A DNA stretch of 43,313 nt from Hydrogenophilales bacterium (GTDB taxonomy: Bacteria; Pseudomonadota; Gammaproteobacteria; Burkholderiales; Thiobacillaceae): positions 1 to 43,313 of the forward strand of contig JAHFRD010000023.1 in NCBI GenBank assembly GCA_023258975.1. The letters are read 5' to 3'. Of the stretch, positions 24,571-40,870 are shown in pieces. The notes beneath the pieces are model-generated. The model was not told the DNA's origin and made no database searches. It saw only the letters and a list, made by a program, of their open reading frames with translations. Position numbers and translations under genes: made by a program. How positions within the stretch are numbered: the first letter of the stretch is position 1; every line of letters starts with the position of its first letter.

Positions 24571-25815
24571 CTACGTGGTGCGGGGATAAGCGAAATGGAT
24601 GTGGTCACACTCCGCGAGATAAGTGAAAACCGCCATTACATAGTCCCGGCTGGCCTGGTCGGCGAATGCATCCAGGATCAGGCGGAAAGAACAGGAACCA
24701 TCCACCTGCGAAAACGCGGCCAGGGCCGCGCCATTCAGCCTCAGCGTGTGCCACTCACGCTGCATGCAAGCGGAATCGTGCTCTTCGGTAAGGACCAAAT
24801 CCGGATGCCTTATGGGTACGGCGTCTGCATCAATCACACCTGCCAACAGCCGTGCGTCAGGAGAAAGCAGGAAGCCATCCTCATCAACCTCACCTACCAA
24901 CAGCCGTTCGGCATGACAGAGGAGGAAGCGGTGAACGCCGGTAACCTGTCCCAACAGGTCGACGATGTGCCACTGCTCAACCCGAGGCAAAGCGTGGATA
25001 TGGTCATGAATCGCCGCATCGGCCGGAAAGACGGCGGAGGGGCTGTAATGCAGGCCGTCCAGCCAGGACTGGAAACGAAGGCCCGCAGCCACCGCCAGAT
25101 CCATGATTTCAGGCACGGTGTAGGCACGATCGCGAGCGTTCAGGAAGGCATCCACGATGCCGGCGTCATAGCCAAGGTCGGGCGCGACTGCCACGTACTG
25201 CCTGGCGGCATGCCATTCAGGCAGGTGAGCCACTACATCACGAGCCAGCGCCACCCCTTCCGGCGTTCTTTCAGCGCCGAGCCGGCGCAATGCCTCCTGC
25301 ACCATATAGACCCCCGCGCGCCGGTGTCTTCCATACAACATCACGCTGATTGCACCTTGCGGCGCGAGCACCTGGCGCAACGCCTCCAGTCCAGCCGCTG
25401 GGTCAGCGAGATGGTGGAGCACCCCTGTCGTAACGATGTAGTCGAACTCACGGCCCAGGGTGCCAACATCCTCCACGGCCACCTGCAACAGCTCCAGGTT
25501 GTGCAATTTGTGCGCCTTCTTGAGACGCTCATGGTGAGCAATCGCCTGACCAGACAGGTCGATTCCGAGCACGCTGGCAGCCGGATTGGCTCTCGCCAGG
25601 ATCGCGGCCTGATTCGCGCCGCACCCGGCGACAAGAATCCGCAAACCCGCCGGCACGGCGCCATGAGGCCATATCTTCCAGCGCAACCGCGACGGATCGG
25701 CATAGTCACGCCCACCCGCCGCCACATAAGCGTCCAGATCCACAATGGGTTCTGGGTAGACCCACTGCTCGTATTGGGTAATCAGCGGATCGCGGGGCAT
25801 GGGCGAACTACGCAT
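24571..25815 (-). CDS. Class I SAM-dependent methyltransferase inside the T4SS operon
   Basis: A 414-residue enzyme. The N-terminal Rossmann domain shows SAM motif I LVAGCGANQ at about 61-69, an acidic strand end SVLGIDLSGQ, and motif VTTGVLHHLADPAAGLEAL at about 128-146. The order is normal for class I methyltransferases. The second half from about residue 300 (FLLCHAERLL to YVMAVFTYLAECDHIHF) is a separate helical domain that might bind a substrate or partner. The gene sits between virB4 and virB5, where conjugation clusters usually have none. It overlaps virB4 by eight bases and has AGGAGG nine bases before the ATG, so it is co-expressed with the channel. The substrate is unknown. Confidence 0.8.
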   Translation of the reverse strand: MRSSPMPRDPLITQYEQWVYPEPIVDLDAYVAAGGRDYADPSRLRWKIWPHGAVPAGLRILVAGCGANQAAILARANPAASVLGIDLSGQAIAHHERLKKAHKLHNLELLQVAVEDVGTLGREFDYIVTTGVLHHLADPAAGLEALRQVLAPQGAISVMLYGRHRRAGVYMVQEALRRLGAERTPEGVALARDVVAHLPEWHAARQYVAVAPDLGYDAGIVDAFLNARDRAYTVPEIMDLAVAAGLRFQSWLDGLHYSPSAVFPADAAIHDHIHALPRVEQWHIVDLLGQVTGVHRFLLCHAERLLVGEVDEDGFLLSPDARLLAGVIDADAVPIRHPDLVLTEEHDSACMQREWHTLRLNGAALAAFSQVDGSCSFRLILDAFADQASRDYVMAVFTYLAECDHIHFAYPRTT

Positions 25816-28659: not shown

Positions 28660-29018
28660 CAGAGATTGTTGATGATTTGCTGCATGGCGCCGGCGCCGCC
28701 GGCACAGTTGAACTGCGCCTGAGCCTTGCCACCTGCCATATAGCCGCCGATGGATGCCACACTTGCCAGCAGGCCGGCCGCCAGCACGCCTTTCAAGGCG
28801 GTCTGCATCCATTCGCCGCCGACCTTCATATACATCGCATAGGCGGAACCACCGACGGCGGCCAACGAAATGACGGCGGGGAGAATCGACTCGGTCACGC
28901 TGACGCCGGCGCAAATGCCATCCTTGACCGGGCCGGCCAAGGCGGGATCGACCGCCAGCATGGCCACACCGGCTACGACGGCGAATTGAAGAGAAGAAGC
29001 AAGCTGAGGTGTTTTCAT
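28659..29018 (-). CDS. virB2: T4SS major pilin VirB2/TrbC
   Basis: A 119-residue prepilin. The signal peptide ends near residue 28 (VDPALA-G). The mature protein has a hydrophobic segment VTESILPAVISLAAVGGSAYAMYM and a second one TALKGVLAAGLLASVASIGGYMAG. This two-helix layout is that of VirB2/TrbC conjugative pilins. The final residues FNCAGGAGAMQQIINNL include a lone cysteine. It overlaps virB11 by an ATGA junction. This pilin is distinct from the type IV pilin at 4550-5149, so the element encodes two kinds of pilus. Confidence 0.85.
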   Translation of the reverse strand: MKTPQLASSLQFAVVAGVAMLAVDPALAGPVKDGICAGVSVTESILPAVISLAAVGGSAYAMYMKVGGEWMQTALKGVLAAGLLASVASIGGYMAGGKAQAQFNCAGGAGAMQQIINNL

Positions 29019-30043
29019 GAAGGAATCCTTTTTTTGAAGATGGAGCGTGTGACATAGGCGCCGTCTTCCACGCCCAGCACCTCGATGATTTCGTCCGGGC
29101 CGCGCATCCCGCCCACGCGGGCGGCCTGCACGACAAAGCGGAAGACGGCGGCGATTTGCGCGCGCAGCGCCGGCAACGGCCAGCCGGCCGCCTCCGGCGC
29201 CATGCGCACCATGTTTTCCAGACGGGCCAGGGCCATGAGCGCGCTGTTCGCATGTAGCGAACAGGCACCGCCGGAGTGACCGGTGTTGAGCGCATCCAAC
29301 AAGTCGAATGCCTCGTAGCCGCGCACCTCGCCGACCAGAATGCGATCGGGCCGGAAGCGCAGGGCCAGGCGGATCAAGTCGCGCGTGGAGACGTTCTTGT
29401 CCGAGTTGCTCTCGAAGCCCACATGATTCGGGGCCTGCACCATCAACTCGGCGGTGTCCTCGATGGTGAGGATGCGGTCGCCATTCGGCATGGCGGCCAC
29501 CAGCGCATTCAGGAACATGGTCTTGCCGCTGGACGTGCCGCCGGCAATCAAGAGGTTCTGCCTGGATTCCACCGCCCAGGACAGGAACTGCATCAGGGCT
29601 TCGCCGCCCTGTGCCGTCTCGGCATCATCCGGCCGATTCGCTGGCACGTATCCGGCCGCCGGCCATTCCGAAGTGAACGCGCCCTGAGCCAGATAGTCCG
29701 ACAAGGTGAGTTGCCGCTTCGCGTGCTTGCGTATCGACATACAGGCGCCATGCACCGCCACCGGCGGCAATGCCGCCGCGATGCGCAAGCCCGGCATCCG
29801 CAGGTCGAGAATCAAGGCCTCGTCCTTGTGGCAAGACGCAGCTAAAGCCTTGATCGCGGCCTTGACCACGGTCTCGGTCAAAACGATGTCGGTGCGAGTG
29901 ACCACACCCTGGCGTTCCACCCAAATGTCGTCGGCGCGGTTGACCATGATCTCCTGCACGCCAGGGTCACTCATGAGCGGCAACAGGGGCGCCAGGTGGG
30001 CGCGCGCCACACGGATGGCCTGGTCTTCCAGGGCGCGGCTCAT
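29015..30043 (-). CDS. virB11: T4SS hexameric ATPase VirB11/TrbB
   Basis: A 342-residue traffic ATPase with an N-terminal domain (DPGVQEIMVNRADDIWVERQG) and Walker A IAGGTSSGKTMFLNALV at about residues 166-174. Further motifs are ILTIEDTAELMVQAPNHVGFES, Walker B RILVGEVRGYEAFDLLDALNTGHSGGACSLHANSA and a C-terminal domain. VirB11 switches the channel between pilus assembly and DNA transfer. It begins four bases before the end of the lytic transglycosylase gene. Confidence 0.93.
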   Translation of the reverse strand: MSRALEDQAIRVARAHLAPLLPLMSDPGVQEIMVNRADDIWVERQGVVTRTDIVLTETVVKAAIKALAASCHKDEALILDLRMPGLRIAAALPPVAVHGACMSIRKHAKRQLTLSDYLAQGAFTSEWPAAGYVPANRPDDAETAQGGEALMQFLSWAVESRQNLLIAGGTSSGKTMFLNALVAAMPNGDRILTIEDTAELMVQAPNHVGFESNSDKNVSTRDLIRLALRFRPDRILVGEVRGYEAFDLLDALNTGHSGGACSLHANSALMALARLENMVRMAPEAAGWPLPALRAQIAAVFRFVVQAARVGGMRGPDEIIEVLGVEDGAYVTRSIFKKRIPS

Positions 30044-30513
30044 CCCTGATCCTCCATTTGAGCCAGTATCCGGCGATATGCGGCGTTAACCTTGCGTGCA
30101 TACCAAGCCCGCCGGCGCAGGCATTCGTTGCCCTGGAGAGTCGTGCAGGCCGCGTTGTAGGCGCCCACTGCTTCCCAGGTCTGACCGTAGCGCGCAAACA
30201 GGTCGGCCAGAATCCAGGCGCCGACCTGCACATTGACGCAAGGTTCCATCAGACGCTTGGCGTCGATACCGTACTGACCCAGCTTGGACAGCCAGCGGGA
30301 ATTGACCTGCATCAGACCGATGTCGATCGAGCGGGTGCGCGCGGCATGACCCCTGTTCACGGCGGCCGGGTTCACTGACGACTCGACGTCGGCGATGGCA
30401 TACAGCAACCAGGGGTGGATGTTGTAACGCTGCCCCGCAGCCACAAAGCAATCCCCAGCCACCGCCTGAGTGGTTACCAGGAACGCCAAGAAGAGAAATC
30501 TGAATTTGTTCAT
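30040..30513 (-). CDS. virB1: VirB1-like lytic transglycosylase
   Basis: A 157-residue exported enzyme. The signal peptide is FLFLAFLVTTQAVA, followed by the SLT fold: CFVAAGQRYNIHPWLLYAIADVESSVNPAAVNRG with the catalytic Glu in ADVESS, then SIDIGLMQVNSRWL and AYNAAC. It opens the peptidoglycan for channel assembly. The start at 30513 (MNKFRF) gives a proper signal peptide; an ATG four codons earlier is also possible. It is the first gene of the operon, with a ~130-base leader separating it from the shared palindrome at 30644. Confidence 0.88.
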   Translation of the reverse strand: MNKFRFLFLAFLVTTQAVAGDCFVAAGQRYNIHPWLLYAIADVESSVNPAAVNRGHAARTRSIDIGLMQVNSRWLSKLGQYGIDAKRLMEPCVNVQVGAWILADLFARYGQTWEAVGAYNAACTTLQGNECLRRRAWYARKVNAAYRRILAQMEDQG

Positions 30514-30643
30514 CCGTCCGTTCATGCAAGGAAAAAGGTGGTCGTCGCCTGGGAGGAGAACGCGACGACCACTAAGCCTCAACTGCAATGCCTGAAACAG
30601 GCGGAACGAACGGTAGGGGGGAACGCGAGAAATTTCAGCCGTA

Positions 30644-30669
30644 AATAGGGTTTTCGATAAAACCCTATT
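30644..30669. promoter_or_regulatory. Shared 26-bp palindrome, copy 1
   Basis: Perfect inverted repeat: arms AATAGGGTTTT and AAAACCCTATT around a 4-base centre CGAT (plus strand). The same 26 bases occur at 36160-36185 and, reversed, at 37282-37307. The site lies about 130 bases before virB1. The low-GC arms without a run of T after them fit a protein-binding operator better than a terminator. Confidence 0.75.
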
Positions 30670-30697
30670 CTTTGTAGAAATAAAAAATTCAAACTGC

Positions 30698-30729
30698 TAG
30701 AATACACAGTTTCGCGCAACAAACGCGAA
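30698..30729 (+). promoter_or_regulatory. Possible rightward promoter element and TTCGCG/CGCGAA inverted repeat, copy 1
   Basis: TAGAAT at 30698-30703 resembles a -10 box for rightward transcription. It is followed by TTCGCGCAACAAACGCGAA (30711-30729), a perfect 6-bp inverted repeat with a 7-base centre, placed where an operator would block transcription. In copy 2 the hexamer is TATAGT and the inverted repeat is unchanged. No gene clearly uses it here: the start codon found in copy 2 reads ACG in this copy. Confidence 0.4.
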
Positions 30730-30812
30730 CATACAAATACCAACAGAAACAAGGAGATACGCAAAAACACACGAACCCCGCCAGCAGGCCCCGCGAAACT
30801 ATTTTTTGCGCA

Positions 30813-31165
30813 AAATCAGCGAAATCATCCCAAAAACGGACGGACACGCCTGGGGCTGCCCCAGAAAACGGAACAAAGCCACGGCAACCGCCACAACGGA
30901 GCGCGTCAGTCTGGCGAACAACTGGTTCGCGGCCGATCTGGCGGCTGTCTGGATGGAGCGGCGCCGCACCGAGAACTAGGCCCGGCTGTTCGGGCTGCCG
31001 TTGGTGCGGGTGGTGAATCCTGGCTCGCATCGACCCGGTCCATGAGCGATAAATCATCAGGTACTGATTTGTTTGGGCGCGCCAAGGCAAAACAATCATG
31101 TTCAGGGAGCATCGAACACACATATCATTGTCAACACGCCTACCCACAGGATACCGGAGCGAAAC
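30813..31165. other. Intergenic stretch with a possible decayed reading frame
   Basis: No intact gene is supported. On the plus strand a frame through VSLANNWFAADLAAVWMERR reaches an in-frame TAG at about 30977-30979, then continues ARLFGLPLVRVVNPGSHRPG before TGA. This could be a degenerate gene end, but I could not identify it. Near 31132-31160 there is a weak promoter-like TTGTCA, and GGAG lies six bases before the next gene's ATG. Confidence 0.3.
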
Positions 31166-31504
31166 ATGTCACAACCCAGGCTATTGCTGCGCTGCTATGC
31201 CAGAGCCGTCGAAGGCCAATGGCAGGCGTTTTGCCTGGATTTCGACTTGGCGGCGCAGGCGGACACCTATGAGGAGGCGCGCGCCAAGTTGGCATCCATG
31301 ATCAGCGCATACCTATATGACGCGCTGCGGGGGGGAGACCGCGATCATGCGGAGCAACTCTTGCATCGCCGTGCGCCTTGGACCATATGGTTGCGCTTCT
31401 ACTCCTATCTCCTGCAGGACAAGGTACTGCACGTCGGTAGCCGCCTACACCACCTGTTCCGCGAACCCGTTCCACTCGTGCCGGCCAGCTGCTGCCAGGC
31501 ATGA
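31166..31504 (+). CDS. HicB/DUF1902-like hypothetical protein
   Basis: A 112-residue protein beginning MSQPRLLLRCYARAVEGQWQAFCLDFDLAAQADTYEEARAKL, the strand pattern of HicB-like and DUF1902-like small proteins. The C-terminus (WLRFYSYLLQDKVLHVGSRLHHLF to PLVPASCC) is longer than an antitoxin core. ATG at 31166 has GGAG six bases upstream. There is no HicA-type partner next to it. Similar stand-alone proteins are widespread in proteobacteria; the function is not known to me. Confidence 0.65.
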   Translation: MSQPRLLLRCYARAVEGQWQAFCLDFDLAAQADTYEEARAKLASMISAYLYDALRGGDRDHAEQLLHRRAPWTIWLRFYSYLLQDKVLHVGSRLHHLFREPVPLVPASCCQA

Positions 31505-31574
31505 GCGAGGCATTCCCGCCACTGACCTGCAAGCAGCAAGGCTGCTGATTTGCTGGATGCGCGCCTTCTTCCGT

Positions 31575-31591
31575 GGGCTACAATGTAGCCC
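31575..31591. promoter_or_regulatory. Palindromic operator of dinJ-yafQ
   Basis: GGGCTACAATGTAGCCC is a perfect 8-bp inverted repeat around one base, lying 19 bases before dinJ. It contains TACAAT, a likely -10 box, so a bound antitoxin would cover the promoter. This is the usual autoregulatory arrangement of RelB/DinJ-type operons. Binding by DinJ is inferred. Confidence 0.65.
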
Positions 31592-31610
31592 GTTTCCTGG
31601 AGAATAAACC

Positions 31611-31874
31611 ATGCCCGCGAACGCAGTAGTTCGTGCCCGTATCGACGAGCACATCAAGGAAGAAGCAACCGCCGTGCTGGCGGCTATGGGGCTGACCCTA
31701 TCCGATGCCTTTCGCATCATGCTGACTCGTGTCGCCCGCGAGAAGGCGCTGCCGTTCGAGCCACTGGTGCCAAACGCGGTCACCATCGCGGCAATGAAGG
31801 AGGCGCGCGCTGGCAACCTGAAGAGCTTCGATAGCGTCGAGGCACTGATGGTGGATCTGCATGCGGAGGATTGA
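31611..31874 (+). CDS. dinJ: RelB/DinJ-family antitoxin
   Basis: An 87-residue protein with the RelB/DinJ ribbon-helix-helix start: VVRARIDEHIKEEATAVLAAMGLTLSDAFRIMLTRVAREKALPFEPLVPN. The C-terminal part would wrap the toxin. The toxin gene follows with a 14-base overlap. GGAG lies upstream of the ATG, and a palindrome overlaps the promoter. Confidence 0.88.
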   Translation: MPANAVVRARIDEHIKEEATAVLAAMGLTLSDAFRIMLTRVAREKALPFEPLVPNAVTIAAMKEARAGNLKSFDSVEALMVDLHAED

Positions 31875-32142
31875 GCGCACCAGCCAGTTCAAGCGCGACT
31901 ATAAGCGGGAGACCAGGGGGCAGCACCGCGCAACGCTCGATGCGGACCTGATACCCGTCGTGAAAGCCTTGGCGAACGATCAAGTACTTGAGCCGCGTTA
32001 CCGCGATCATTCGCTGACCGGTGACTGGAAGGGCCATCGGGACTGCCACATCAAGCCTGATCTGGTATTGATCTACGAAAAACCAGATGACGTTGTGTTG
32101 CAGCTTGTCCGTCTCGGTTCGCATAGCGAACTTGGCTTGTGA
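31861..32142 (+). CDS. yafQ: YafQ-family mRNA interferase toxin
   Basis: A 93-residue RelE-superfamily toxin. It opens RRIERTSQFKRDYKRETRGQH and contains EPRYRDHSLTGDWKGHRDCHIKPDLVLIYEKPDD, the YafQ pattern. In that family the His and Asp of RDHxL and DCHIKPD are among the active-site residues. The C-terminal RLGSHSELG supplies the final His. It should cleave mRNA on the ribosome when freed from DinJ. The pair appears intact. Confidence 0.88.
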   Translation: MRRIERTSQFKRDYKRETRGQHRATLDADLIPVVKALANDQVLEPRYRDHSLTGDWKGHRDCHIKPDLVLIYEKPDDVVLQLVRLGSHSELGL

Positions 32143-32166
32143 TGCCGTTGAGTTACGGTGCCACGC

Positions 32167-32265
32167 GCCATCCTCCGGGCGCCAGTCATGGTGTTTCCGA
32201 TGATCCCCGCCCGCATCTTCGGCGCCACCCCAGCCGCCAGGCCCTGGGCCTGTTCGCCCATCGCG
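32167..32265. repeat. 99-bp duplicated fragment of the gene at 34466-36079
   Basis: From GCCATCCTCCGGGCGCC to TTCGCCCATCGCG this segment matches 34680-34778 in the same orientation with only a few differences. The source lies in the 3' part of the exported-protein gene; here the minus strand still reads MGEQAQGLA and VAPKMRAGIIG before running out of homology. It begins 24 bases after the yafQ stop. It is not a gene by itself. Confidence 0.85.
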
Positions 32266-32277
32266 CCACGCCCAAGG

Positions 32278-32305
32278 TTGAAAAGATTACAATGCGCATT
32301 ACATT
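32278..32305 (+). promoter_or_regulatory. Probable promoter for the 32336-32808 gene pair
   Basis: TTGAAA (32278-32283) and TACATT (32300-32305) are separated by 16 bases, 30 bases before the ATG. The spacer contains ACAATGCGCATTACATTG-like symmetry (AATGCGCATT is a perfect palindrome), which could be an operator for the product of the first gene. Confidence 0.45.
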
Positions 32306-32335
32306 GGAACAGGCATTCAAAGGAGCGCCACCACC

Positions 32336-32605
32336 ATGAAAGGCACCTCGAAGACCGAGCGCATCACCATTCTCGGGACACCGGAGTTCAAGGCCTTCCT
32401 CGCGCTGGAAGCGGAGAAATCCAACGTCAGCGTATCGGAACTGGTTCGCAATCGTTGCGAGCAAGCGACCATGGACAGCGAGGACTTGGAAACCCTGGCA
32501 GCGCTGTCCAGGGAACTGACTCACGCGGTAGCCGAGGCGCGACAATCCCTCAAAGCCGGTCTGGCGAGTATTCAGGAAACATTGGCCAGGCGGAGTGAAG
32601 CATGA
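32336..32605 (+). CDS. Small hypothetical protein, possible ribbon-helix-helix regulator
   Basis: An 89-residue protein starting KGTSKTERITILGTPEFKAFLALEAEKSNVSVSELVRNRCEQ. The strand-helix-helix layout with SVSELVR is what ribbon-helix-helix DNA-binding proteins look like. A helical tail (LAALSRELTHAVAEARQSLKAGLASIQETL) follows. It overlaps the next small gene by four bases, so the two are a unit. A toxin-antitoxin or regulatory pair is possible; I do not recognise a known family for the partner. Confidence 0.6.
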   Translation: MKGTSKTERITILGTPEFKAFLALEAEKSNVSVSELVRNRCEQATMDSEDLETLAALSRELTHAVAEARQSLKAGLASIQETLARRSEA

Positions 32606-32808
32606 GCGCGGTGAGTGATGCGATCACCGCCATCCGGGATGCGCTGAAATTGGCGGACGATGTGAAACGAGTAGGCGATCAGTTGACCGGCATTGCCCAG
32701 GAATTGCGCGATCATGATCGCCGAATTACCCGCCTGGAAGCGAAATGGGAGACCGCCATCGAACTGGCTGCCATCCGCCATCCGCGGATCGACCAGAACA
32801 GGCCGTGA
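32602..32808 (+). CDS. Small hypothetical helical protein, partner of the preceding gene
   Basis: A 68-residue, highly charged helical protein (DAITAIRDALKLADDVKRVGDQLTGIAQELRDHDRRITRLEAKWETAIELA), probably a coiled coil. The start overlaps the upstream stop (ATGA). There are no cysteines, signal peptide or membrane helix. The function is unknown; co-expression with the putative ribbon-helix-helix protein is the main clue. Confidence 0.55.
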   Translation: MSAVSDAITAIRDALKLADDVKRVGDQLTGIAQELRDHDRRITRLEAKWETAIELAAIRHPRIDQNRP

Positions 32809-32969
32809 CTCCGTTCAAGTTTTAGCGACCCTGTGTCGCACATCACTTGACACGGCCAAGTGGTTGAATAGACTGAGCAAAGCAATTCGTAGGTCGAAGC
32901 CGGTCAGTCCCTGCAACCGGCACACCTCGCAAGAGGTCGGGATTATCGTAATGCTGTTTCTCAACCCTG

Positions 32970-32984
32970 CCGGGGCGTCCCCGG
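32970..32984. repeat. Short GC-rich hairpin in the 32809-33023 gap
   Basis: CCGGGG-CGT-CCCCGG forms a perfect 6-bp stem. No T-run follows on either strand, so it is not a standard terminator. It lies 40 bases before the ATG of the next gene and could affect its translation. The rest of the 215-base gap shows nothing I can name. Confidence 0.35.
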
Positions 32985-33023
32985 TGGGGATCGCCTTCGG
33001 CCAACCACCTGGAGGCATTCAAA

Positions 33024-33446
33024 ATGGGCAACATGAACCTGTCGATTGAAGTATTTGACGTATTCGAGCGGAAATTTGGTCGCGAGGATGCGCTTGTGCT
33101 TGGAAAGTCACTGGAGGCCACCTTCTCCCGTCTGGAAGAACGGGGTGCCGAGATTTCCATCCAGCGCAAGATCGAAGTCAAGGACGAACTGAAGCGCGAG
33201 CTGAAGGACGAACTGGCCACCAAGGAAGACATCGCCAATCTTCGGGGCAATGTGAAGGAAGACATTGCCACCCTGCGTGGGGAGGTGAAGGAAGACATCG
33301 CCAATTTACGTGGGGAGTTGAAGGAAGACATCGCCAGACTGGACAAGAAGTTCACCGTCCTGTCTGTCGTGGTGATCTTCTCCACCCTGTTCGTGAACAA
33401 GGACGCTCTCACTTGGTTCGCCCAGATCATCGGGTTGGTTCGGTAA
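33024..33446 (+). CDS. Coiled-coil protein with 11-residue tandem repeats and C-terminal membrane helix
   Basis: A 140-residue protein. After an N-terminal helix (VFERKFGREDALVLGKSLEATFSRLEE), residues ~66-110 hold four tandem 11-residue units beginning KEDIA: KEDIANLRGNV, KEDIATLRGEV, KEDIANLRGEL, KEDIARLDKKF. The DNA is a 33-bp direct repeat. A membrane helix FTVLSVVVIFSTLFV then anchors the end. The layout resembles DUF1640-type coiled-coil proteins, but the match is loose. GGAGG lies eight bases before the ATG. Repeat number could vary between strains. Confidence 0.65.
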   Translation: MGNMNLSIEVFDVFERKFGREDALVLGKSLEATFSRLEERGAEISIQRKIEVKDELKRELKDELATKEDIANLRGNVKEDIATLRGEVKEDIANLRGELKEDIARLDKKFTVLSVVVIFSTLFVNKDALTWFAQIIGLVR

Positions 33447-33562
33447 TACCAGGCCGGCCAATTCTGGCTGGCGCCATTCACCCTGTTGGGGATCCACCTT
33501 CCCGACATGGGAACTGTCATTATCGACAGGGTGGTCTCCGCTCAATTCTCTAGGAGACTTTC

Positions 33563-34399
33563 ATGACAAAAATCGCTTTAACCACGGGACGGATCATCAT
33601 GCGCATCGGTTACTCCCTCGTCCTGGCCAGCATGCTGACCACTTCCCCCGCCTTCGCCGAGGATGGGTTCAACTTCCTGGGCGGTAATGCCCAGGCGGAA
33701 AAACCCGCCAAGGCCAAAGCGCCGCGCGAAGTTAATCCGTTCTCTGATGGAAGCCCGATGACAAAGGCGGCAGCCGCCGGGTTTGGTCTCGCCCTACTTG
33801 GCCCGATTGGTGCCATTGGCGTGCCGATCGCTACCATCATGATTTCTAACAATAACGTTGAAAACGTGACGAAGTTGGACGCCTTCTACGCTGGTGCAGT
33901 GCTACGAGGGAAGGTGGAGAAGATATTCCCATTGGGTAATTCGTCCTCGACGGCACAGTTTCTTGCCGACATCAAGAAAAGCGGCATTGACCCATCTACG
34001 ATTCCGTTACCAGCGACGATTAGGAACAACCTGGTCGCGCTACGACTTGATGTGGATGGCCCGAAAGGTTCTGAGCGTGTCGTGGTGGCACGCAAAGATG
34101 CTGACTACGAGATAGGCGACATCCTGGACGTGAAGACTGTAGTACAAAATAGTGCGCCTATTTACTACAACAAGCACATGCCCCGCGTCATCGCCCTCTA
34201 CTGCAAGCACGATAACGCAGTCTGCCAGAACGACTACAACTCTTCCCTCGGCGTCCTTTCCCGCCACACCGACACCGAGTTTCCCCCCTCGCAATACCTG
34301 ATCGACCCGGCCATCATCGCCGCCGACCAGGCGAAGATGCGGAAAGAAGAGGAAGAACGGAAGACGGCCGCGAACAGCGGTGGCTTCAACTTCATGTAA
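33563..34399 (+). CDS. Exported protein of unknown function with GFNF motifs at both ends
   Basis: A 278-residue protein with a signal peptide (MRIGYSLVLASMLTTSPAFA-E). The mature protein begins EDGFNFLGGN and the chain ends NSGGFNFM. In between lie a glycine/alanine hydrophobic segment (AAAAGFGLALLGPIGAIGVPIATIMI), probably membrane-inserting, and a beta-rich domain (LVALRLDVDGPKGSERVVVARKDADYEIGDILDVKTVV). AGGAG lies seven bases before the ATG at 33563; an internal ATG at 33599 gives a tidier signal peptide. It is convergent with the exported-protein gene at 34466-36079 and ends in a terminator. I do not recognise a family. Confidence 0.65.
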   Translation: MTKIALTTGRIIMRIGYSLVLASMLTTSPAFAEDGFNFLGGNAQAEKPAKAKAPREVNPFSDGSPMTKAAAAGFGLALLGPIGAIGVPIATIMISNNNVENVTKLDAFYAGAVLRGKVEKIFPLGNSSSTAQFLADIKKSGIDPSTIPLPATIRNNLVALRLDVDGPKGSERVVVARKDADYEIGDILDVKTVVQNSAPIYYNKHMPRVIALYCKHDNAVCQNDYNSSLGVLSRHTDTEFPPSQYLIDPAIIAADQAKMRKEEEERKTAANSGGFNFM

Positions 34400-34415
34400 C
34401 CGCACCACCCAAAAG

Positions 34416-34447
34416 AACGGCCCCCACCAGTGATGGTGGGGGCCGTT
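34416..34447. terminator. Strong hairpin terminator between convergent genes
   Basis: Arms AACGGCCCCCACCA and TGGTGGGGGCCGTT form a perfect 14-bp stem around GTGA. T residues follow on the plus strand and AAAAG-type sequence precedes it, so it can work in both directions. It serves the genes ending at 34399 (plus) and 34466 (minus). Confidence 0.88.
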
Positions 34448-34465
34448 TGCATTTCAGCTACCGCT

Positions 34466-36079
34466 TTACTGCGGTTGCGGCTGCTCGATCCTTAATTTCT
34501 CCATGCGTGCCGTACAGCGATCCAGCGCGACGCCCATATTCCCGGCCATCTTGCACTGCTCGCGCGAGTCCCACAGATCCAGCGGGACGTTGCGCTGCCG
34601 GTAGGAAGTCGTCCGGGGCGCGATGCCGGGATCGACCGCGTTGCATCGCGCCCCCGGCGTATTCGGGCAGTCGCCATAGGCCATCCTCCGGGCGCCGGTC
34701 ATGGTGGCGCCGATGATCCCCGCCCGCATCTTCGGCGCCACCGCCGCCGCCAGGCCCTGGGCTTGTTCGCCCATCGCGGAGAGGTTGGGCATGAGTTGAC
34801 CGTCACCTACCTTGCCCAACAGATCGGCCTGCGCGGCGTTCGCCCCCTCGCCCGTGGCCAGAGTCGTGCCGGCGATATAAGCGCCTCCGACCGTGGCACC
34901 TACTGCCGCCGCACCAGTTGTGGCGGCAGTGGTAGCGCCAACGGCATTAACACCCGCACTCGCCCCCAACATCGGCAACCCATAAGCCAGCGCCATCCCC
35001 ATCGTCAGCACCCCCAAAATGATCCCGATCCCCATCACGGACAAGCTGCTCTTGCTCTGCTGCCACTGATACAGCATCTCCTCATCCACCGGCAGATTCC
35101 CGCCCGTCCAGGGCCGCACCGAGATTCCCGACTTGGCCGTCCACTCCGGCGCCAGGCATTTACCTTCGGTCGTCGCCGTGCTGTGGGTGCAGATCACCGC
35201 TTCCACCGGGGTGCTGTCCATGTTCTTCGGCACCGCGAGGAACCACTTCGGCTTGGCGTAGCCCTTCACCGTGGTCGTGCATTTCTTCTTGAAAAAGCTG
35301 CTCGAACACGACTGGTTCTGGTCGAAGCGTGTATCCGGGATGTAGATCATCCCGAAGGCCGCCTGGTAATGCTGCATGGCGTAGCCCACCGCCACCTGCA
35401 CCGCCGGGAAACTGACGTTGTGCCACAGGGGGTCGGTCGCATAGGACTCCTGGCCATTGACGAGGTCGGGATATTGTTGGAACAGGTTGAACGGGTTGTG
35501 CCCGGCGATGTACGGGTTCGTCAGTTCCTCGGGCGTCATGTGATACCGCGCCACCGCCCACAGCCGGCCGTGGTAGGGCGTGAAATCCGCGACGTAGACG
35601 TGGACCCGGTTGTCCATGCCCTTCTCCACCTTCTGCACGAGGATGCGGGCCGTGGCGTTGACCGGGTCATAGGCCGCGAAGACCTGGCTGTACGACCCAC
35701 CTGGTGGAATCTTGCGCAGGGAGTAATCGACGGTATCGTCCTGCCGGTTCAACCCCGCCGAGACGTTGGCGGCGGTCATCCAGGCTGGCCCGTCGATCAT
35801 GCGGCGGTCGGTGCCATTCGCCATGTTCCAGGCGCCATCGGCAATTTCCGCCCAGTTGTCGCGGGGAATGTAGAGGAACTCCGGCGCCCTGGCGCTGCCG
35901 CCGTTGAGCGTGGCGCCGACGTACATCCAGTTGTCCACGAGGCCGGAGACGTGGTGGGCCCAGGTGTGATCGACACCGTGGATGTCCACCACGGCCGCTG
36001 TGGCTTCGGCGGGGATCAGGATGGCCTGGATGGTGATCGTGGCCAGCAATACGCGGGCAATCAGGCGAGTGAAGAACAT
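34466..36079 (-). CDS. Large exported/membrane protein of unknown function in the transfer region
   Basis: A 537-residue protein. The signal peptide is LIARVLLATITIQAILIPAEATA. A mainly soluble N-terminal region of about 340 residues includes GVDHTWAHHVSGLVDNWMYVGATLNGG, FLYIPRDNWAEIADGAW and CSSSFFKKKCTTTVKG. A hydrophobic region at about 350-410 (LSVMGIGIILGVLTMGMALAYGLPMLG, then an Ala/Gly/Thr-rich stretch) precedes a C-terminal tail with cysteines (GDCPNTPGARCNA, REQCKMAGNMGVALDRC). A copy of the shared 26-bp palindrome lies 80 bases upstream, as for the channel and coupling operons, so it is probably a transfer protein. A fragment of its 3' end is duplicated at 32167-32265. Confidence 0.65.
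   Translation of the reverse strand: MFFTRLIARVLLATITIQAILIPAEATAAVVDIHGVDHTWAHHVSGLVDNWMYVGATLNGGSARAPEFLYIPRDNWAEIADGAWNMANGTDRRMIDGPAWMTAANVSAGLNRQDDTVDYSLRKIPPGGSYSQVFAAYDPVNATARILVQKVEKGMDNRVHVYVADFTPYHGRLWAVARYHMTPEELTNPYIAGHNPFNLFQQYPDLVNGQESYATDPLWHNVSFPAVQVAVGYAMQHYQAAFGMIYIPDTRFDQNQSCSSSFFKKKCTTTVKGYAKPKWFLAVPKNMDSTPVEAVICTHSTATTEGKCLAPEWTAKSGISVRPWTGGNLPVDEEMLYQWQQSKSSLSVMGIGIILGVLTMGMALAYGLPMLGASAGVNAVGATTAATTGAAAVGATVGGAYIAGTTLATGEGANAAQADLLGKVGDGQLMPNLSAMGEQAQGLAAAVAPKMRAGIIGATMTGARRMAYGDCPNTPGARCNAVDPGIAPRTTSYRQRNVPLDLWDSREQCKMAGNMGVALDRCTARMEKLRIEQPQPQ
34680..34778. repeat. Source copy of the 99-bp duplication
   Basis: This part of the 34466-36079 gene encodes the SAMGEQAQGLAAAVAPKMRAGIIGATMTGARRMAY region. 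It is nearly identical to 32167-32265 in the same orientation. Being inside an intact gene, it is the likely donor. Confidence 0.85.
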
Positions 36080-36159
36080 GGGAAACCTCTCGTGTGGTTG
36101 AGCGGCCCGAAGGGGTCACGCGCGAACGGTACGAGGGAATGAAAGAAATTTCAGCCGTA

Positions 36160-36185
36160 AATAGGGTTTTCGATAAAACCCTATT
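36160..36185. promoter_or_regulatory. Shared 26-bp palindrome, copy 2
   Basis: Arms AATAGGGTTTT and AAAACCCTATT around CGAT, identical to copy 1. It lies 80 bases before the ATG of the minus-strand gene ending at 34466 and has the same orientation relative to its downstream gene as the other two copies. Confidence 0.75.
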
Positions 36186-36213
36186 CTTTGTAGAAATAAA
36201 AAAATCAAACGGA

Positions 36214-36245
36214 TATAGTACAAAGTTTCGCGCAACAAACGCGAA
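36214..36245 (+). promoter_or_regulatory. Possible rightward promoter element and TTCGCG/CGCGAA inverted repeat, copy 2
   Basis: TATAGT (36214-36219) is a good -10 box. TTCGCG (36227-36232) and CGCGAA (36240-36245) follow as a perfect inverted repeat. A ribosome-binding-like AAGGAG and a short frame lie just downstream. Transcription would run toward mazE, opposite to the exported-protein gene. Confidence 0.42.
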
Positions 36246-36274
36246 CATACAAATACCAACAAAAACAAGGAGAT

Positions 36275-36313
36275 ATGCAGAAACACGAGAAGCCAGCCCG
36301 GAAACCCTCTTGA
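36275..36313 (+). CDS. Possible 12-residue leader peptide
   Basis: AAGGAG followed five bases later by ATG opens a frame encoding MQKHEKPARKPS and a TGA stop. It lies directly after the rightward promoter-like element in repeat copy 2. In copy 1 the equivalent codon is ACG, so the frame is not kept. It may be a chance frame within a regulatory region. Confidence 0.25.
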   Translation: MQKHEKPARKPS

Positions 36314-36405
36314 AATAATTTCCGCGAAACAGGCTGATCTACCACCCATCCACCGACCCTTGGCTCCAACAACAGCCCAAGCGGATAGGCATGGCGCAAA
36401 GAGCG

Positions 36406-36425
36406 TGTTATACGTGGATATAACA
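36406..36425. promoter_or_regulatory. Palindromic operator of mazE-mazF
   Basis: TGTTATACGTGGATATAACA has 7-bp perfect arms around a 6-base centre and includes TATAAC, a possible -10 box. It ends 18 bases before the mazE ATG. Autoregulation by the antitoxin or the MazEF complex through such a site is usual; here it is inferred. Confidence 0.6.
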
Positions 36426-36443
36426 ACGCAACCGGAGTACGTC

Positions 36444-36701
36444 ATGCACACAACCAACCTTCGCAAAGTGGGTGGATCCGTCATGTTGACGGTCCCGCCA
36501 GCGATCCTGGAAATGCTGCACCTGACGGTCGGCGCAACCGTGGGTGTCACCGTTGACGATGGTCGCCTGGTCGTTGATCCGACGCCGCGCCCGCGCTACA
36601 CCCTGGCCGACCTGCTGGAAGCATCCGACTACTCGCAGCCACAACCCCCGGAAGAACGCGAATGGGTTGACGCACCCTCGGCCGGAGAAGAACTCGTATG
36701 A
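36444..36701 (+). CDS. mazE: MazE/ChpS-like AbrB-type antitoxin
   Basis: An 85-residue protein with a swapped-hairpin AbrB start: NLRKVGGSVMLTVPPAILEMLHLTVGATVGVTVDDGRLVVDP. The acidic C-terminal tail (LADLLEASDYSQPQPPEEREWVDA) is the part that wraps MazF. GGAG lies seven bases before the ATG at 36444; an in-frame upstream ATG at 36360 would run through the operator and is rejected. It overlaps mazF by four bases. Confidence 0.88.
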   Translation: MHTTNLRKVGGSVMLTVPPAILEMLHLTVGATVGVTVDDGRLVVDPTPRPRYTLADLLEASDYSQPQPPEEREWVDAPSAGEELV

Positions 36702-37024
36702 ACCGAGGGGACATATATCTGGTGTCCCTTGACCCCACCGAAGGGCATGAGCAGAACGGTCGCCGTCCGGTCTTGGTGGTGTCGCCCGCCGCCTTCAACG
36801 CGGCTACCAGGCTACCAATCATCGTGCCGATCACGAATGGCGGGGAGTACGCCCGTCGGCTTGGCTTCGCAGTGCCGATCAATGGCATCAAGACAACAGG
36901 CGTGGTTCGATGCGATCAGCCGCGTGTGCTGGATATAGCGGCTCGCAACGGCCGCAAGGTGGACACCCTGCCAAAAGCAATCCTCGTCGAGGTAATGGCA
37001 AGGCTGGCGCCAATCTTCGAGTAA
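36698..37024 (+). CDS. mazF: MazF/ChpB-like endoribonuclease toxin
   Basis: A 108-residue toxin of the PemK/MazF family. It shows MNRGDIYLVSLDPTEGHEQNGRRPVLVVSPAAFN with the RGDIY and RPVLVV strands, PITNGGEYARRLGFAVP, and TTGVVRCDQPRVLDIAARNGR, where the Cys-Asp-Gln segment matches the family. It should cleave mRNA at specific short sites. The gene is intact and coupled to mazE. A probable terminator follows at 37162-37188. Confidence 0.9.
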   Translation: MNRGDIYLVSLDPTEGHEQNGRRPVLVVSPAAFNAATRLPIIVPITNGGEYARRLGFAVPINGIKTTGVVRCDQPRVLDIAARNGRKVDTLPKAILVEVMARLAPIFE

Positions 37025-37104
37025 CCCCACCCGTCCAGGCAAACAGAGCAAAGGGGCGGTCGTCGGCGCCCGCCATCAAGGGGAAGGGGCTTATCTTAAA
37101 GGGC

Positions 37105-37135
37105 ACGCCCCCCGCTAATAAGACGCGGGGGGCGT
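37105..37135. repeat. GC-rich inverted repeat
   Basis: Arms ACGCCCCCCGC and GCGGGGGGCGT form a perfect 11-bp stem with a 9-base loop TAATAAGAC. No T-run follows, so it is not a typical intrinsic terminator. It could be part of an origin of transfer or a transcription-pausing structure. Confidence 0.6.
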
Positions 37136-37161
37136 TACCGAAAGGGCTTAATGGGGAATGG

Positions 37162-37188
37162 AAAAAGCCTTAATGGGTAAGGGCTTTT
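37162..37188. terminator. Probable bidirectional terminator after mazF
   Basis: AAAAAGCC-TTA and TAAGGGCTTTT pair with one bulged base around ATGGG, and T/A runs lie on both sides. A second hairpin at 37221-37235 (GGCCC-TTAAA-GGGCC) has an A-run to its left, giving a T-run on the minus strand. Confidence 0.6.
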
Positions 37189-37272
37189 AGAACCGAAAGG
37201 GGTAATGGAGACAAGAAAAAGGCCCTTAAAGGGCCGGCGACCGCGTGAGCATACCTTCTTTGGAACAGTCTC

Positions 37273-37316
37273 GCCACAATAAATAGGGTTTTATCGAAAA
37301 CCCTATTTATTGTGGC
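37273..37316. promoter_or_regulatory. Shared palindrome, copy 3, extended to a perfect 44-bp inverted repeat
   Basis: The 26-bp core at 37282-37307 equals copies 1 and 2 in reverse orientation. Here the symmetry extends nine bases further on each side (GCCACAATA and TATTGTGGC), giving 20-bp perfect arms around ATCG. It lies 55 bases before the first gene of the traD-traI operon. The outer ACAATAAA half also appears in an operator-like site at 43082-43099. Confidence 0.8.
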
Positions 37317-37370
37317 GGCCGCCCTTTTTCCTGGGCAGTCTCCGGCGCATTGCGTTGCTGGAGCATGAAC

Positions 37371-37691
37371 ATGTACATCGAGCGTCTCAAAGGCCCTGAC
37401 TCGGTACTCCCCATCATCAATACCCTCGTCGCACGGGAACACCCGCGCACGGTGTTCATCGTCGATGGGCAAGTCAAAACCTATCCAACTAACAGCCTGA
37501 GCGAGAAACGCTGCCTCAATAACGAATTCGCCGTCATGGTCGGCACCTACGACGCCGGCGTGGACGCCCGGCGTCTCTATGAGGACATTCTGGCGTCTCT
37601 GCCACAGGACTTGCTTCGCCATCGACTGGTGCTGGGCTCCACTCATAGTGGCATGAACCGGCTTGCCGAATTCCGCCGGCCGGGGGCGTGA
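37371..37691 (+). CDS. Small hypothetical protein, first gene of the traD-traI operon
   Basis: A 106-residue soluble protein (MYIERLKGPDSVLPIINTLVAREHPRTVFIVDG to HRLVLGSTHSGMNRLAEFRRPG). The ATG at 37371 is preceded by GGAG with seven-base spacing; an ATG at 37365 is too close to that site. It overlaps the next gene as TGATG. No family is recognised; position suggests a DNA-processing or regulatory accessory. Confidence 0.55.
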   Translation: MYIERLKGPDSVLPIINTLVAREHPRTVFIVDGQVKTYPTNSLSEKRCLNNEFAVMVGTYDAGVDARRLYEDILASLPQDLLRHRLVLGSTHSGMNRLAEFRRPGA

Positions 37692-38104
37692 TGCGCACGC
37701 CCGTTGAAGTAACCATGGACCACATCTCCGAGCGCCTGGTGGCGCTCCAGGCGGCTCGGTGGCTGCCGGTGCTTCATGCCTGGCTGTCGCAATATCGCGG
37801 GCTTTATGACGTCATCTCGGGCGATTCGGAATCGCCCGAGAGCCAAATCAGTGTCTTGTTGGAGCAGATTGATATTCCTCTGGACGACAATGATCTAGCG
37901 GCGCGCCTGGCGCGCCTGGATTTCCTGACCTGGCGCGCCAGGAACGGCGCCCAGCCCTGGGCACCTCTGGAGGTGCCCTTTCAGCAGTTCTGGGTGGAAG
38001 GCGTCGCCATCTGGCAATCCGACCGCGAATATCCGGAACCCACTGAAACAGAACAATGGCTGTTGAACTGTCTCAGAAAGGTTGCCCTGTGCCCTACCCC
38101 GTAG
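37691..38104 (+). CDS. Hypothetical protein upstream of traD
   Basis: A 137-residue soluble protein rich in Trp and acidic residues (MDHISERLVALQAARWLPVLHAWLSQYRGLYDVISGD, FWVEGVAIWQSDREYPEPTETEQWLL). It starts within the stop of the preceding gene and its end overlaps the traD frame, so all are probably translated from one mRNA. I do not recognise a family. Confidence 0.55.
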   Translation: MRTPVEVTMDHISERLVALQAARWLPVLHAWLSQYRGLYDVISGDSESPESQISVLLEQIDIPLDDNDLAARLARLDFLTWRARNGAQPWAPLEVPFQQFWVEGVAIWQSDREYPEPTETEQWLLNCLRKVALCPTP

Positions 38105-40191
38105 AAAACCTGCTGCGCCGCCCCTACGAGTTGTACTCGGCCGTGGGCATGTCGAGTTTGGCGGTGTCTACCTCCGTCTTATCCTTTGCCCGCATTCCGT
38201 TCGGCCCCGTCCCGGAAGAGGCCCTGCCTGTCTCGGCGTGCATTTGCGCCTACGCCGCCTGGCGCGCCTGGCAGGGCTGGCGCCTCGTGCGCTACCAGCG
38301 CGGGCTGAGAAAGCTCCCGCTCTTCCAGTTGGGCCTGGACGAGATACCGCATTCGACCAAGGCGTATTACGTGGGCAAGGGGTTCCAGTTTGACACCCGC
38401 CATGTCCAGCGGCTGGTCATGGCGCGCGAGCCCAGGTTCGCGCACTTGTCCCGGCCGAGTTGGTTGCATGACATGGCCCGCACCCTGGAACTGCGCGCCG
38501 AGAACGCGGGCATGGATCTGCGCCAGTACACCAGCCATGATGCTTGGTGGAACCCGGCGCGCCCCCTGCCACCGGTCGGCGGCGATCCTTTGCTACATGC
38601 CGTGGGTCTGTGGGAAGGAGAAAAAGACGTCTGGTTCGACCTGTATTCCCGTGTCGGCCATGTGCTGGTGCTAGGCACCACCCGTGTCGGCAAGACCCGG
38701 TTCCTGGAACTACAGGTCACTCAGGACATACGGCGCGGTGATACCGCGATCGTGTTTGATCCGAAAGGCGATGCTGCCCTGCTCAAGCGCATGTACACCG
38801 AGGCGAAGCGGGCCGGGAAACTGGACCGCTTCTATGTCTTCCACTTGGGTTTCCCGGAACTTTCGGCACGCTACAACGGCATAGGCGACTTCAGCCGGGT
38901 TACCGAGATCGCCACCCGGATCACCAACCAACTGCCACAGGAGGGCGAAGGCGCGAACTTCGCCCAATTCGTCTGGGGTTTCGTGAACTCCATGGGCCGC
39001 GCGCTCGTCGCTCTGGGTCGCAAGGTCCGCTATGTGGACATCCTGCGCTACGCCTCGGACATCGAGCCGCTGGTGCTGGATTACTGCGCCTTCTGGCTCG
39101 ATCGGGAGCCCAAAGCGGCTGGATGGCGCGATGAGGTTGCCGCCAGGGAAATCGAAAAGAAGAGCGTCGACCGCGCCCTGCAAAGCCGGTCGATGGACAT
39201 CATCAAGCTGATCGACTACATCCGCGCCAAGGGTCTCTACGACCCTGTCGCGCACTCCCTCATCAAGATCATCAGCTTCGAGCAATCGTTCTGGAACAAG
39301 TTGGTCGCCTCGCTCATTCCGTTGCTGGAGAAGCTCACCACCGGCCAGGTCGCGGAGCTGCTCAATCCGGACTACGAGGATCCGGACGATCCCCGCCCGA
39401 TCTTCGATTGGGAAGGCATCCTGCGCGGTGGCGGCATCGTCTACGTGGGCCTGGATTCCCTATCCGACTACGAAGTGGCGGGGGCCGTGGGCAATTCGAT
39501 GTTCTCCGACCTCACCAGCCTGGCTGGTCGTATCTACAAGGACGTGCAATCGGGTGGCGCGCCGATCACGAAATGCAGTGTCCATGCCGACGAGTTCAAC
39601 GAGTTGATCGGCGACGAGTTCGTGCCCCTGCTCAACAAGGCTGGTGGCGCCGGCTTTCAGGTCACCGTGTATACCCAGACCTGGTCGGACATCGAGGCGC
39701 GCATCGGCAACAAGGCCAAGGCCGGGCAGATCGGCGGTAACCTGAACAGCCTCTTCATGCTGCGGGTCAAAAATCCCGAGACGGCGGAAATCCTCACCAA
39801 GCAACTCGGCAAGGTGCGGATCAACACCCTGACGCCGGTGACCGGCGCGAATGACAACAACAACCCGGAGGATTTCGACGAATTCACCAGCAAGAACGAA
39901 GATCGGATCACGCCACAGGAAGTGGACCTGCTCACGACATCCGACGTGACCAGTCTGCCGAAGGGTCAGGCCTACGCCTACGTCGAGGGCCGTCTCTACA
40001 AGCTGCGCCTGCCATTGCCGGATCCGGCCGACGAAGAGGCGATGCCGGCGAGCCTGGCACACATGGTGCGCGACATGGCGAGCCGGCACGCGAATGATGG
40101 ATTCGAGGCTGAAGGCATGGAGGGGCCGGCGCCCCTCCAGCCTGGTGAAGAACATGGCGTGACCGTGCAAGGGAAAGGCAGTGGCTGGTAA
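38056..40191 (+). CDS. traD: Type IV coupling protein TraD (SXT/MobH-associated type)
   Basis: A 711-residue ATPase of the VirD4/TraD superfamily. The N-terminal membrane region (SSLAVSTSVLSFARIPF and LPVSACICAYAAWRAW) is followed by Walker A LGTTRVGKTRFLEL at about residue 204-217, IVFDPKGDAALL, GGIVYVGLDSL and SVHADEFNELIGDEFVPLLNKAGGAGFQVTVYTQTWSD. The last stretch holds the Walker B-type segment and the Gln/Thr sensor region. It brings the relaxosome to the channel. ATG at 38056 overlaps the upstream gene by 49 bases; a GTG at 38089 with AAAGG upstream is an alternative start. Confidence 0.88.
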   Translation: MAVELSQKGCPVPYPVENLLRRPYELYSAVGMSSLAVSTSVLSFARIPFGPVPEEALPVSACICAYAAWRAWQGWRLVRYQRGLRKLPLFQLGLDEIPHSTKAYYVGKGFQFDTRHVQRLVMAREPRFAHLSRPSWLHDMARTLELRAENAGMDLRQYTSHDAWWNPARPLPPVGGDPLLHAVGLWEGEKDVWFDLYSRVGHVLVLGTTRVGKTRFLELQVTQDIRRGDTAIVFDPKGDAALLKRMYTEAKRAGKLDRFYVFHLGFPELSARYNGIGDFSRVTEIATRITNQLPQEGEGANFAQFVWGFVNSMGRALVALGRKVRYVDILRYASDIEPLVLDYCAFWLDREPKAAGWRDEVAAREIEKKSVDRALQSRSMDIIKLIDYIRAKGLYDPVAHSLIKIISFEQSFWNKLVASLIPLLEKLTTGQVAELLNPDYEDPDDPRPIFDWEGILRGGGIVYVGLDSLSDYEVAGAVGNSMFSDLTSLAGRIYKDVQSGGAPITKCSVHADEFNELIGDEFVPLLNKAGGAGFQVTVYTQTWSDIEARIGNKAKAGQIGGNLNSLFMLRVKNPETAEILTKQLGKVRINTLTPVTGANDNNNPEDFDEFTSKNEDRITPQEVDLLTTSDVTSLPKGQAYAYVEGRLYKLRLPLPDPADEEAMPASLAHMVRDMASRHANDGFEAEGMEGPAPLQPGEEHGVTVQGKGSGW

Positions 40192-40870
40192 TCAAGGCAC
40201 ACCGGACCCCAATCCGTTCGGGTTTTTCTTCGCGCCCCTGCGCTTCGCCGTCTGGCTGTCGTTGACGTGCATCGGGTTGGCCCTGTTGTCTCTCATCATG
40301 CAGATTGCCGTGGCCAGATTCGCCTGGCCACCAGGCCAGGGGCAAGATCGGATGCGCAGTCTGGCGCAGGCCGAAGCGTCACACCTGGGCATGGCGGACA
40401 ACGCCATGTCTTACCGGATCGGCAAACGGATCGCGGAAAGTGTCTACGCCCTGGAGTTCCGAGCCACCGGGCTGCACCGGGTGGTGGTGGAGCAGCGCCC
40501 TTTGCCCGTAATCAGCAAGCTCGCGGCGAACTTTGGCGAAGAAATCCGCATCGCCATGACCGGCACCTGGCTGGTGGGTTTCCGTCTGGCCAGCGCCGCC
40601 GGCGTGCTTTGGCTCGTGGTCATAGTCTGGGTGACGGGGTTGTTGGACGGGCTTTCCGAGCGCGCCGCGCGCCGCGAATGCGCGGGCCGCGAATCGGCGA
40701 ACCTGTATCACCGGGCCAAGTATTTCCACTTCTTTGGCTTACCCATTGCACTGGCCATGTATTGCACCCTGCCGTTCGAGGTTTCACCTGCCATCCTGTT
40801 CTATCCCATCGTCCTGGCCACCGCCCTGCTCAGCAGGATGCAGTGGAAGTACTACAAGAAATACCTGTGA
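40181..40870 (+). CDS. DUF4400 integrating-conjugative-element membrane protein
   Basis: A 229-residue protein with membrane segments at about 18-45 (LRFAVWLSLTCIGLALLSLIMQIAVA), 130-152 (FRLASAAGVLWLVVIVWVTGLL) and 185-215 (FGLPIALAMYCTLPFEVSPAILFYPIVLAT). The segment ERAARRECAGRESANLYHRAKYF is typical of DUF4400 proteins, which lie between the coupling protein and the MobH relaxase in many integrative elements. It starts with GTG within the traD 3' end and ends one base before traI. The role is unknown; it may link the coupling protein to the channel. Confidence 0.8.
   Translation: MAGNQGTPDPNPFGFFFAPLRFAVWLSLTCIGLALLSLIMQIAVARFAWPPGQGQDRMRSLAQAEASHLGMADNAMSYRIGKRIAESVYALEFRATGLHRVVVEQRPLPVISKLAANFGEEIRIAMTGTWLVGFRLASAAGVLWLVVIVWVTGLLDGLSERAARRECAGRESANLYHRAKYFHFFGLPIALAMYCTLPFEVSPAILFYPIVLATALLSRMQWKYYKKYL

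Follow-up and report, generated by a model that had tools for sequence, protein, structure and literature searches.

The stretch of DNA analyzed here (the window, also C23; 43,313 nucleotides, the whole of contig JAHFRD010000023.1) comes from a Hydrogenophilales bacterium (assembly GCA_023258975.1) whose 3.6-Mb genome is assembled in 37 contigs, and it holds part of a MOBH transfer element, apparently ending within that element on both sides. The element carries a TraI_2 relaxase, a TOL-type TraD, a virB set (an MPF_T channel), and type IV pilus genes. On the reverse strand, a long virB-pil operon begins with virB1 (30040 to 30525; SLT transglycosylase, Pfam PF01464; start codon uncertain) and includes genes for a virB11-like ATPase (29015 to 30043; TIGR02788 at 223 bits, under the cut-off of 249.95) and virB4 (25808 to 28345; PF03135). 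On the forward strand lies an operon consisting of small1 (37365 to 37691), small2 (37688 to 38104; assigned by alignment to a family common to related elements), traD (38056 to 40191; coupling protein, TIGR03754 at 779 bits), a gene for a DUF4400 membrane protein (40181 to 40870; TIGR03747, under its cut-off), and traI (41052 to 43040; MOBH-type relaxase with TraI_2 and TraI_2_C, the true start lying upstream). In a slightly shorter form, small1 matched no family in profile searches of Pfam and NCBIfam.

Upstream of these operons, a 26-bp palindrome, AATAGGGTTTT-N4-AAAACCCTATT, occurs three times without mismatch: before virB1 (30644 to 30669, reverse strand), before a gene for an exported protein (36160 to 36185, reverse strand), and before small1 (forward strand), where its core at 37282 to 37307 extends to a 46-bp palindrome with 21-bp arms (37272 to 37317). 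A prediction made from the window's sequence alone (the original prediction) had placed the three copies at 30644, 36160, and 37282; all three are exact, and none of 100 dinucleotide shuffles of the window contains the palindrome, even with up to 3 mismatches allowed. The predicted spacing of 63 to 130 bases to the downstream starts agrees with the gaps measured, which are 130 bases (ATG at 30513) or 118 bases (ATG at 30525) from copy 1 to virB1, with 55 to a TTG at 30588; 80 bases from copy 2 to the ATG at 36079; and 63 (ATG at 37371) or 57 bases (ATG at 37365) from copy 3 to small1. On the forward strand, the four central bases are CGAT in copies 1 and 2 and ATCG in copy 3, and thus all three copies read AATAGGGTTTT-ATCG-AAAACCCTATT in the direction of their genes. 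The common orientation that had been claimed is therefore present, but the argument drawn from it is thin, the palindrome being nearly symmetric and only its central ATCG directional. What had been called a traD-traI operon is also present, but two small open reading frames precede traD, and the longer palindrome at this site had been overlooked, as had a terminator before virB1.

The three copies are not independent. Copies 1 and 2 lie within a 207-bp direct repeat (30607 to 30813 and 36123 to 36329; 85% identical, with 32 mismatches) that holds the palindrome together with a divergent promoter-like region, and because a single duplicated segment accounts for both, three copies amount to two independent placements. 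Within the repeat, a mismatch-free run of 60 bp (30628 to 30687) contains the palindrome, and random placement of the 32 mismatches gave such a run in 4 of 20,000 trials. This pattern indicates that the 60-bp stretch with the palindrome is retained after duplication, through selection or gene conversion. The repeats (30607 to 36329 overall) bracket 5.3 kb of DNA in which the exported-protein gene lies along with a toxin-antitoxin pair.

The gene behind copy 2 (34466 to 36079, reverse strand; 537 amino acids) matches no Pfam or NCBIfam family, but its product is a distant homologue, about 30% identical, of that of the last gene in the type IV pilus runs of Limnohabitans and Robbsia plasmids. 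It is plausibly a mating-pilus gene by this homology, and in this sense the claim that the palindromes mark three transfer units can stand, although both plasmids are non-mobilizable by MOB-suite typing. The window has pilus genes of its own, downstream within the virB operon. Just beyond the gene, at 34414 to 34456, lies a sub-threshold Rfam match to the antisense RNA ctRNA_p42d (25.5 bits against a cut-off of 50).

Between the palindromes of the two operons lie a mazE-mazF toxin-antitoxin pair (36444 to 37024, forward strand; PF04014 and PF02452) and a non-coding block (37085 to 37260, forward strand) with a GC-rich hairpin and TTAATGGG-like repeats, which forms part of a 277-bp stretch 84% identical to another contig of the genome, C31. 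This block is the probable origin of transfer (oriT); the assignment draws on its location next to the MOBH operon, on the hairpin, and on conservation between the two contigs rather than on a nick-site match.

C31 carries a diverged relative of the C23 element (about 67 to 91% identical in the longer aligned pieces; small1, 71%). A search of the whole genome allowing up to 3 mismatches returned five sites, the three in C23 and two in C31, the latter ahead of the corresponding pair of operons, at virB1 and at small1-small2-traD. All five thus precede transfer operons of two related elements and occur nowhere else. Within each element the 26 bp are identical, whereas the palindrome core of C23 (TTTTATCGAAAA) is not that of C31 (TTTCATCGTAAA), as expected for a site that co-evolves with its regulator. 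Among 117 genomes of the family, only this one has a match, the other 116 having none. The original prediction had named many copies unrelated to transfer genes as the observation that would count against it; no copies were found elsewhere in the genome or in those 116 genomes, and the genome likewise lacks the many scattered copies of a REP-like (repetitive extragenic palindromic) dispersed repeat. Together with the shuffles, these searches rule out chance and a host-wide repeat.

A relaxed form, ATAGGGTTT-N6-AAACCCTAT, recurs in 12 stretches of the genome collection and in 2 viral stretches, which we take as chance occurrences; the central six bases of all 14 lack ATCG and CGAT, and they lie mostly in low-GC, unrelated records. 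An 18-bp core was likewise present in 6 viral stretches, but the outer arms were absent. Plasmid DNA searches using both intergenic stretches returned no match, and we found no description of the palindrome in the literature, where no search targeted the exact sequence.

These distributions bear on the view that the palindrome is a functionless dispersed repeat or relic of duplication. Copies 1 and 2 did arise as a duplication; however, there are just five sites, each before a transfer operon, the core is constant within and different between elements, and a separate analogue exists in another genome (see below), all of which leave this explanation very improbable.

The two contigs also differ in layout. 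Relative to C23, C31 shows a reciprocal inversion with junctions at 5367 to 5373 and 13591 to 13603, both inside genes and sharing only about 8 bases, which splits virB4 and traI into open pieces. Recombination between the 207-bp repeats of C23 would delete 5,516 bp and leave a C31-like layout. The toxin-antitoxin pairs between the palindromes are different as well, being YafQ/DinJ-like (31573 to 32147) and MazEF in C23 and FitA-like plus a PIN domain (9938 to 10605) in C31; such pairs may insert preferentially in this gap.

Among relatives, TraD gave matches (E values up to 1e-100) in 22 of the order's 399 genomes, and VirB4 (E values up to 1e-85) in 7 of 369 genomes of the class, own genome included in both cases. 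Six elements have virB and traI/traD operons that diverge from a single intergenic region: C23, C31, Burkholderia cenocepacia pTY921B, Burkholderia glumae p48s4p, and elements of two further genomes, G330 and G388. This set leaves out elements in which the two operons are co-directional, as well as six less similar loci (L076, L077, L080, L082, L083, and L087) in which a virB1-like gene diverges from a traI-like gene and neither virB11 nor virB4 is matched.

The G330 element, which is chromosomal, has a palindrome of its own, AAACCCTTTC-N7-GAAAGGGTTT, that occurs twice, once on each side of the divergent virB/traI region, and these are the only two occurrences in the 5.6-Mb genome at up to 3 mismatches; as in C23, the palindrome on the traI side is the longer one. 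On pTY921B, a looser repeated hairpin is found on both sides and nowhere else in the part of the plasmid that was scanned (78,042 of its 88,423 bases). When 41 sequences (27 plus 14, some of them overlapping) were scanned for paired similar palindromes, a scan for which the pTY921B pair is too imperfect, only C23, C31, and G330 gave pairs, along with two loci that are a different matter: L084, which has repeated GCCGTCTGAA palindromes, and L095, from a genome showing the same word, which we take to be the Neisseria uptake sequence. The off-center core points in the same direction relative to the genes in C23, C31, and G330. Given the kinship of C23 with C31 and the duplicate origin of copies 1 and 2, this amounts to about two independent comparisons, and on pTY921B both copies lie on one strand while the genes diverge, giving opposite orientations relative to the genes; the orientation argument thus carries little weight.

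The position of the palindromes around the probable oriT would also suit a relaxosome or DNA-processing site, in which palindromes flanking oriT are bound by a relaxase accessory protein (e.g., small2) or form hairpins in the transferred single strand. The C31 and G330 copies do bracket the probable oriT, several relatives keep small2 next to oriT, and the hairpins have very high stability (with RNA parameters, the traD copy folds at −33.2 kcal/mol). However, about 6.4 kb and other genes separate the virB1 copy in C23 from the oriT-like block, copy 2 has been retained unchanged before a separate gene, and the distance from palindrome to oriT varies widely among copies. We regard a role in DNA processing as unlikely, though its fit with positions flanking the probable oriT counts against an operator.

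On the virB side, a hairpin separates the palindrome from the likely start codons of virB1; it has the form of an intrinsic terminator, i.e., a GC-rich stem of at least 8 pairs followed by a T-run (30533 to 30572, reverse strand; an 11-bp stem at 30538 to 30572 and a 13-nucleotide loop with CUCCUCCC, with CTTTTT after it). Scanning under fixed criteria revealed a terminator in five of the six virB leaders (C23, C31, pTY921B, B. glumae, and G330), which are not fully independent cases, C23 and C31 being close relatives, and in none of seven other leaders (the six on the traD/traI side and that of the exported-protein gene). Shuffled leaders gave a terminator in 0 of 200 cases, except those of B. 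glumae (1 of 200). The sixth leader, G388, has by eye a weaker hairpin with a T-run (about 14027 to 14060 of locus L088) that failed the scan. The stems of C23, C31, and B. glumae reach to within some 25 bases of the first possible start codon. A promoter could hardly fit into the remaining space, and it is therefore probable that virB transcripts have to read through the terminator; on pTY921B and in G330, the terminator lies further upstream of the virB start. Between C23 and C31, two stem pairs differ, both compensated, and the loop CUCCUCCC is the same, but this covariation is not significant, as 123 of 500 shuffles equal it. Rfam matches were all sub-threshold, including CcsR1 on the virB1 leader hairpin (18.6 bits against a cut-off of 65.3), which we set aside. 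The palindromes themselves are not terminators: no T-run follows them, and the scans do not list them.

A terminator so placed raises the possibility that the palindrome acts as RNA, its transcribed hairpin working in the leader as, e.g., a nut- or put-like signal for antitermination past the virB1 terminator. In keeping with this, the off-center ATCG loop and its direction relative to the genes are conserved in C23 and C31, five of the six elements have a terminator downstream on the virB side, and the single A-to-G difference between the G330 copies would preserve a G-U pair. Yet the traD operon and the exported-protein gene have the palindrome but gave no terminator in the scan, the B. glumae terminator comes with no detected palindrome, the outer arms on the virB side differ without compensation, the innermost pair is broken in C31, and the two pTY921B sites have opposite orientations. 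An RNA element is, on balance, quite improbable. The same holds, by a hair less, for a two-tier switch, in which the palindrome, as a nut-like antitermination signal or a co-diverging operator, would couple the two operons and license polymerase past the virB terminator.

From the sites and where they lie, from the way they recur in some relatives, and from the sequence of the terminator, we think it probable that the palindrome is the operator of an element-encoded, DNA-binding transfer regulator, with a second, termination-based gate on virB being possible; protein binding, transcriptional regulation, and the action of the terminator in the cell are what we infer from these patterns. Such a regulator would bind the palindrome and control divergent promoters that flank the probable oriT, with one driving the virB-pil operon (the mating channel) and the other the traD-traI operon (DNA processing), and the duplicated virB-side copy would now serve the displaced pilus-associated gene. 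Each element has a palindrome sequence that is the same or almost the same at all of its sites and unlike that of other elements; it would co-evolve with the regulator, and at the second gate virB transcripts would have to pass the intrinsic terminator between the palindrome and virB1. The regulon operator initially proposed is thus partly supported: it gains from the lack of further copies in the own genome and in the 116 others and from two C31 copies where they were predicted, and it is weakened by there being only two independent placements and by the thinness of the orientation argument. Where divergent tra promoters have an operator in common, it often serves a repressor, and for this reason we lean slightly toward repression over activation, a choice that the sequence does not decide.

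Several observations weigh against an operator. The gene for the regulator was not found, and two of the six elements (B. glumae p48s4p and G388) gave no paired palindrome in our scans. The six less similar loci have neither a similar pair of palindromes nor a terminator, and the absence of terminators there lowered our confidence in the operator slightly and in the two-tier switch by still less. There is no convincing sigma-70 promoter toward virB1 or traD; the sole sigma-70-like pair by copies 1 and 2 faces away from virB1 and the exported-protein gene (TAGAAA-17-TAGAAT at 30675 to 30703, forward strand, and TAGAAA-17-TATAGT at 36191 to 36219), with TAGAAA-17-TACAGT as its C31 counterpart. 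By chance alone, 0.3 and 1.0 matches of this kind would be expected in the two stretches, but the first, second, fourth, and sixth positions of the second hexamer are conserved, which makes a divergent transcript plausible. Behind the promoter-like site at copy 2 are a Shine-Dalgarno-like AAGGAG (36267 to 36272) and a 12-codon open reading frame (36275 to 36313); copy 1 and C31 have no ATG at that position.

If the palindrome is indeed an operator, it names the regulon and control point of a MOBH/MPF_T/type IV pilus element family and can serve as bait for the missing regulator. With a terminator standing before virB in five of the six elements, control of a Gram-negative transfer operon by termination becomes open to direct test.

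Terminators and antitermination have been described for conjugation operons of Gram-positive bacteria (PMC8955417 and PMC11658703). The likeness lies in a terminator within a transfer operon; antitermination is described there, whereas the present case offers the terminator sequence only, no antitermination factor having been searched for. In SXT/R391 integrative and conjugative elements (ICEs) and IncC plasmids, one regulator (SetCD/AcaCD) acts through one motif at many transfer promoters with poor −35 elements (PMC4344509). A single motif before several transfer operons and poor −35 elements are common to both systems, but the AcaCD core is GCCCAAAATGGGC (PMC5058578), and an FlhDC-type activator was rejected, as the FlhC family (PF05280) has no match in the own genome.

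In ICEclc, the BisDC transfer regulon shares a 27-bp motif in 8 of 9 bimodal promoters (PMC9286271). That one element's transfer promoters share a motif, and that ParB-like and DUF2857 proteins occur in this element family, are points of likeness; because of this regulon and the recurrence of DUF2857, BisD/BisC-like genes (ParB-like plus DUF2857) are obvious candidates for the factor acting on the palindrome. DUF2857 was present in all five related genomes or plasmids tested (three of them over the cut-off), and the own genome has one, beside ParA and a ParB-like protein on contig C13 (TIGR03764 at 123 bits, under the cut-off of 143.75). This run, which is only possibly part of one of the two elements, is at 5389 to 12573 of C13 (L065), includes a topoisomerase gene, and by eye adjoins a lysS-like gene. 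However, the palindrome is absent from C13 (at up to 3 mismatches) and hence from the front of the regulator's own operon, whereas the ICEclc BisDC keeps a feedback loop on its own promoter (PMC9286271); nor is there a palindrome near DUF2857 in G330, and DUF2857 also occurs in genomes without paired palindromes. A BisDC-type regulator is thus an unlikely binder of this site.

A further parallel to the operator that we favor is that of IncP-1 (RK2) plasmids, in which KorB and KorA operators are common to several plasmid operons and are bound by plasmid-encoded global repressors, KorB being a ParB-family protein (PMC11790492, PMC4889941, and PMC5577506). The ParB-like protein encoded on C13 would be a candidate for binding the palindrome in this way. 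To our knowledge, the palindrome is unlike the RK2 operators. Both systems place one operator at several operons; in RK2 the operators belong to global repressors, whereas the palindrome sites described here are limited to transfer operons.

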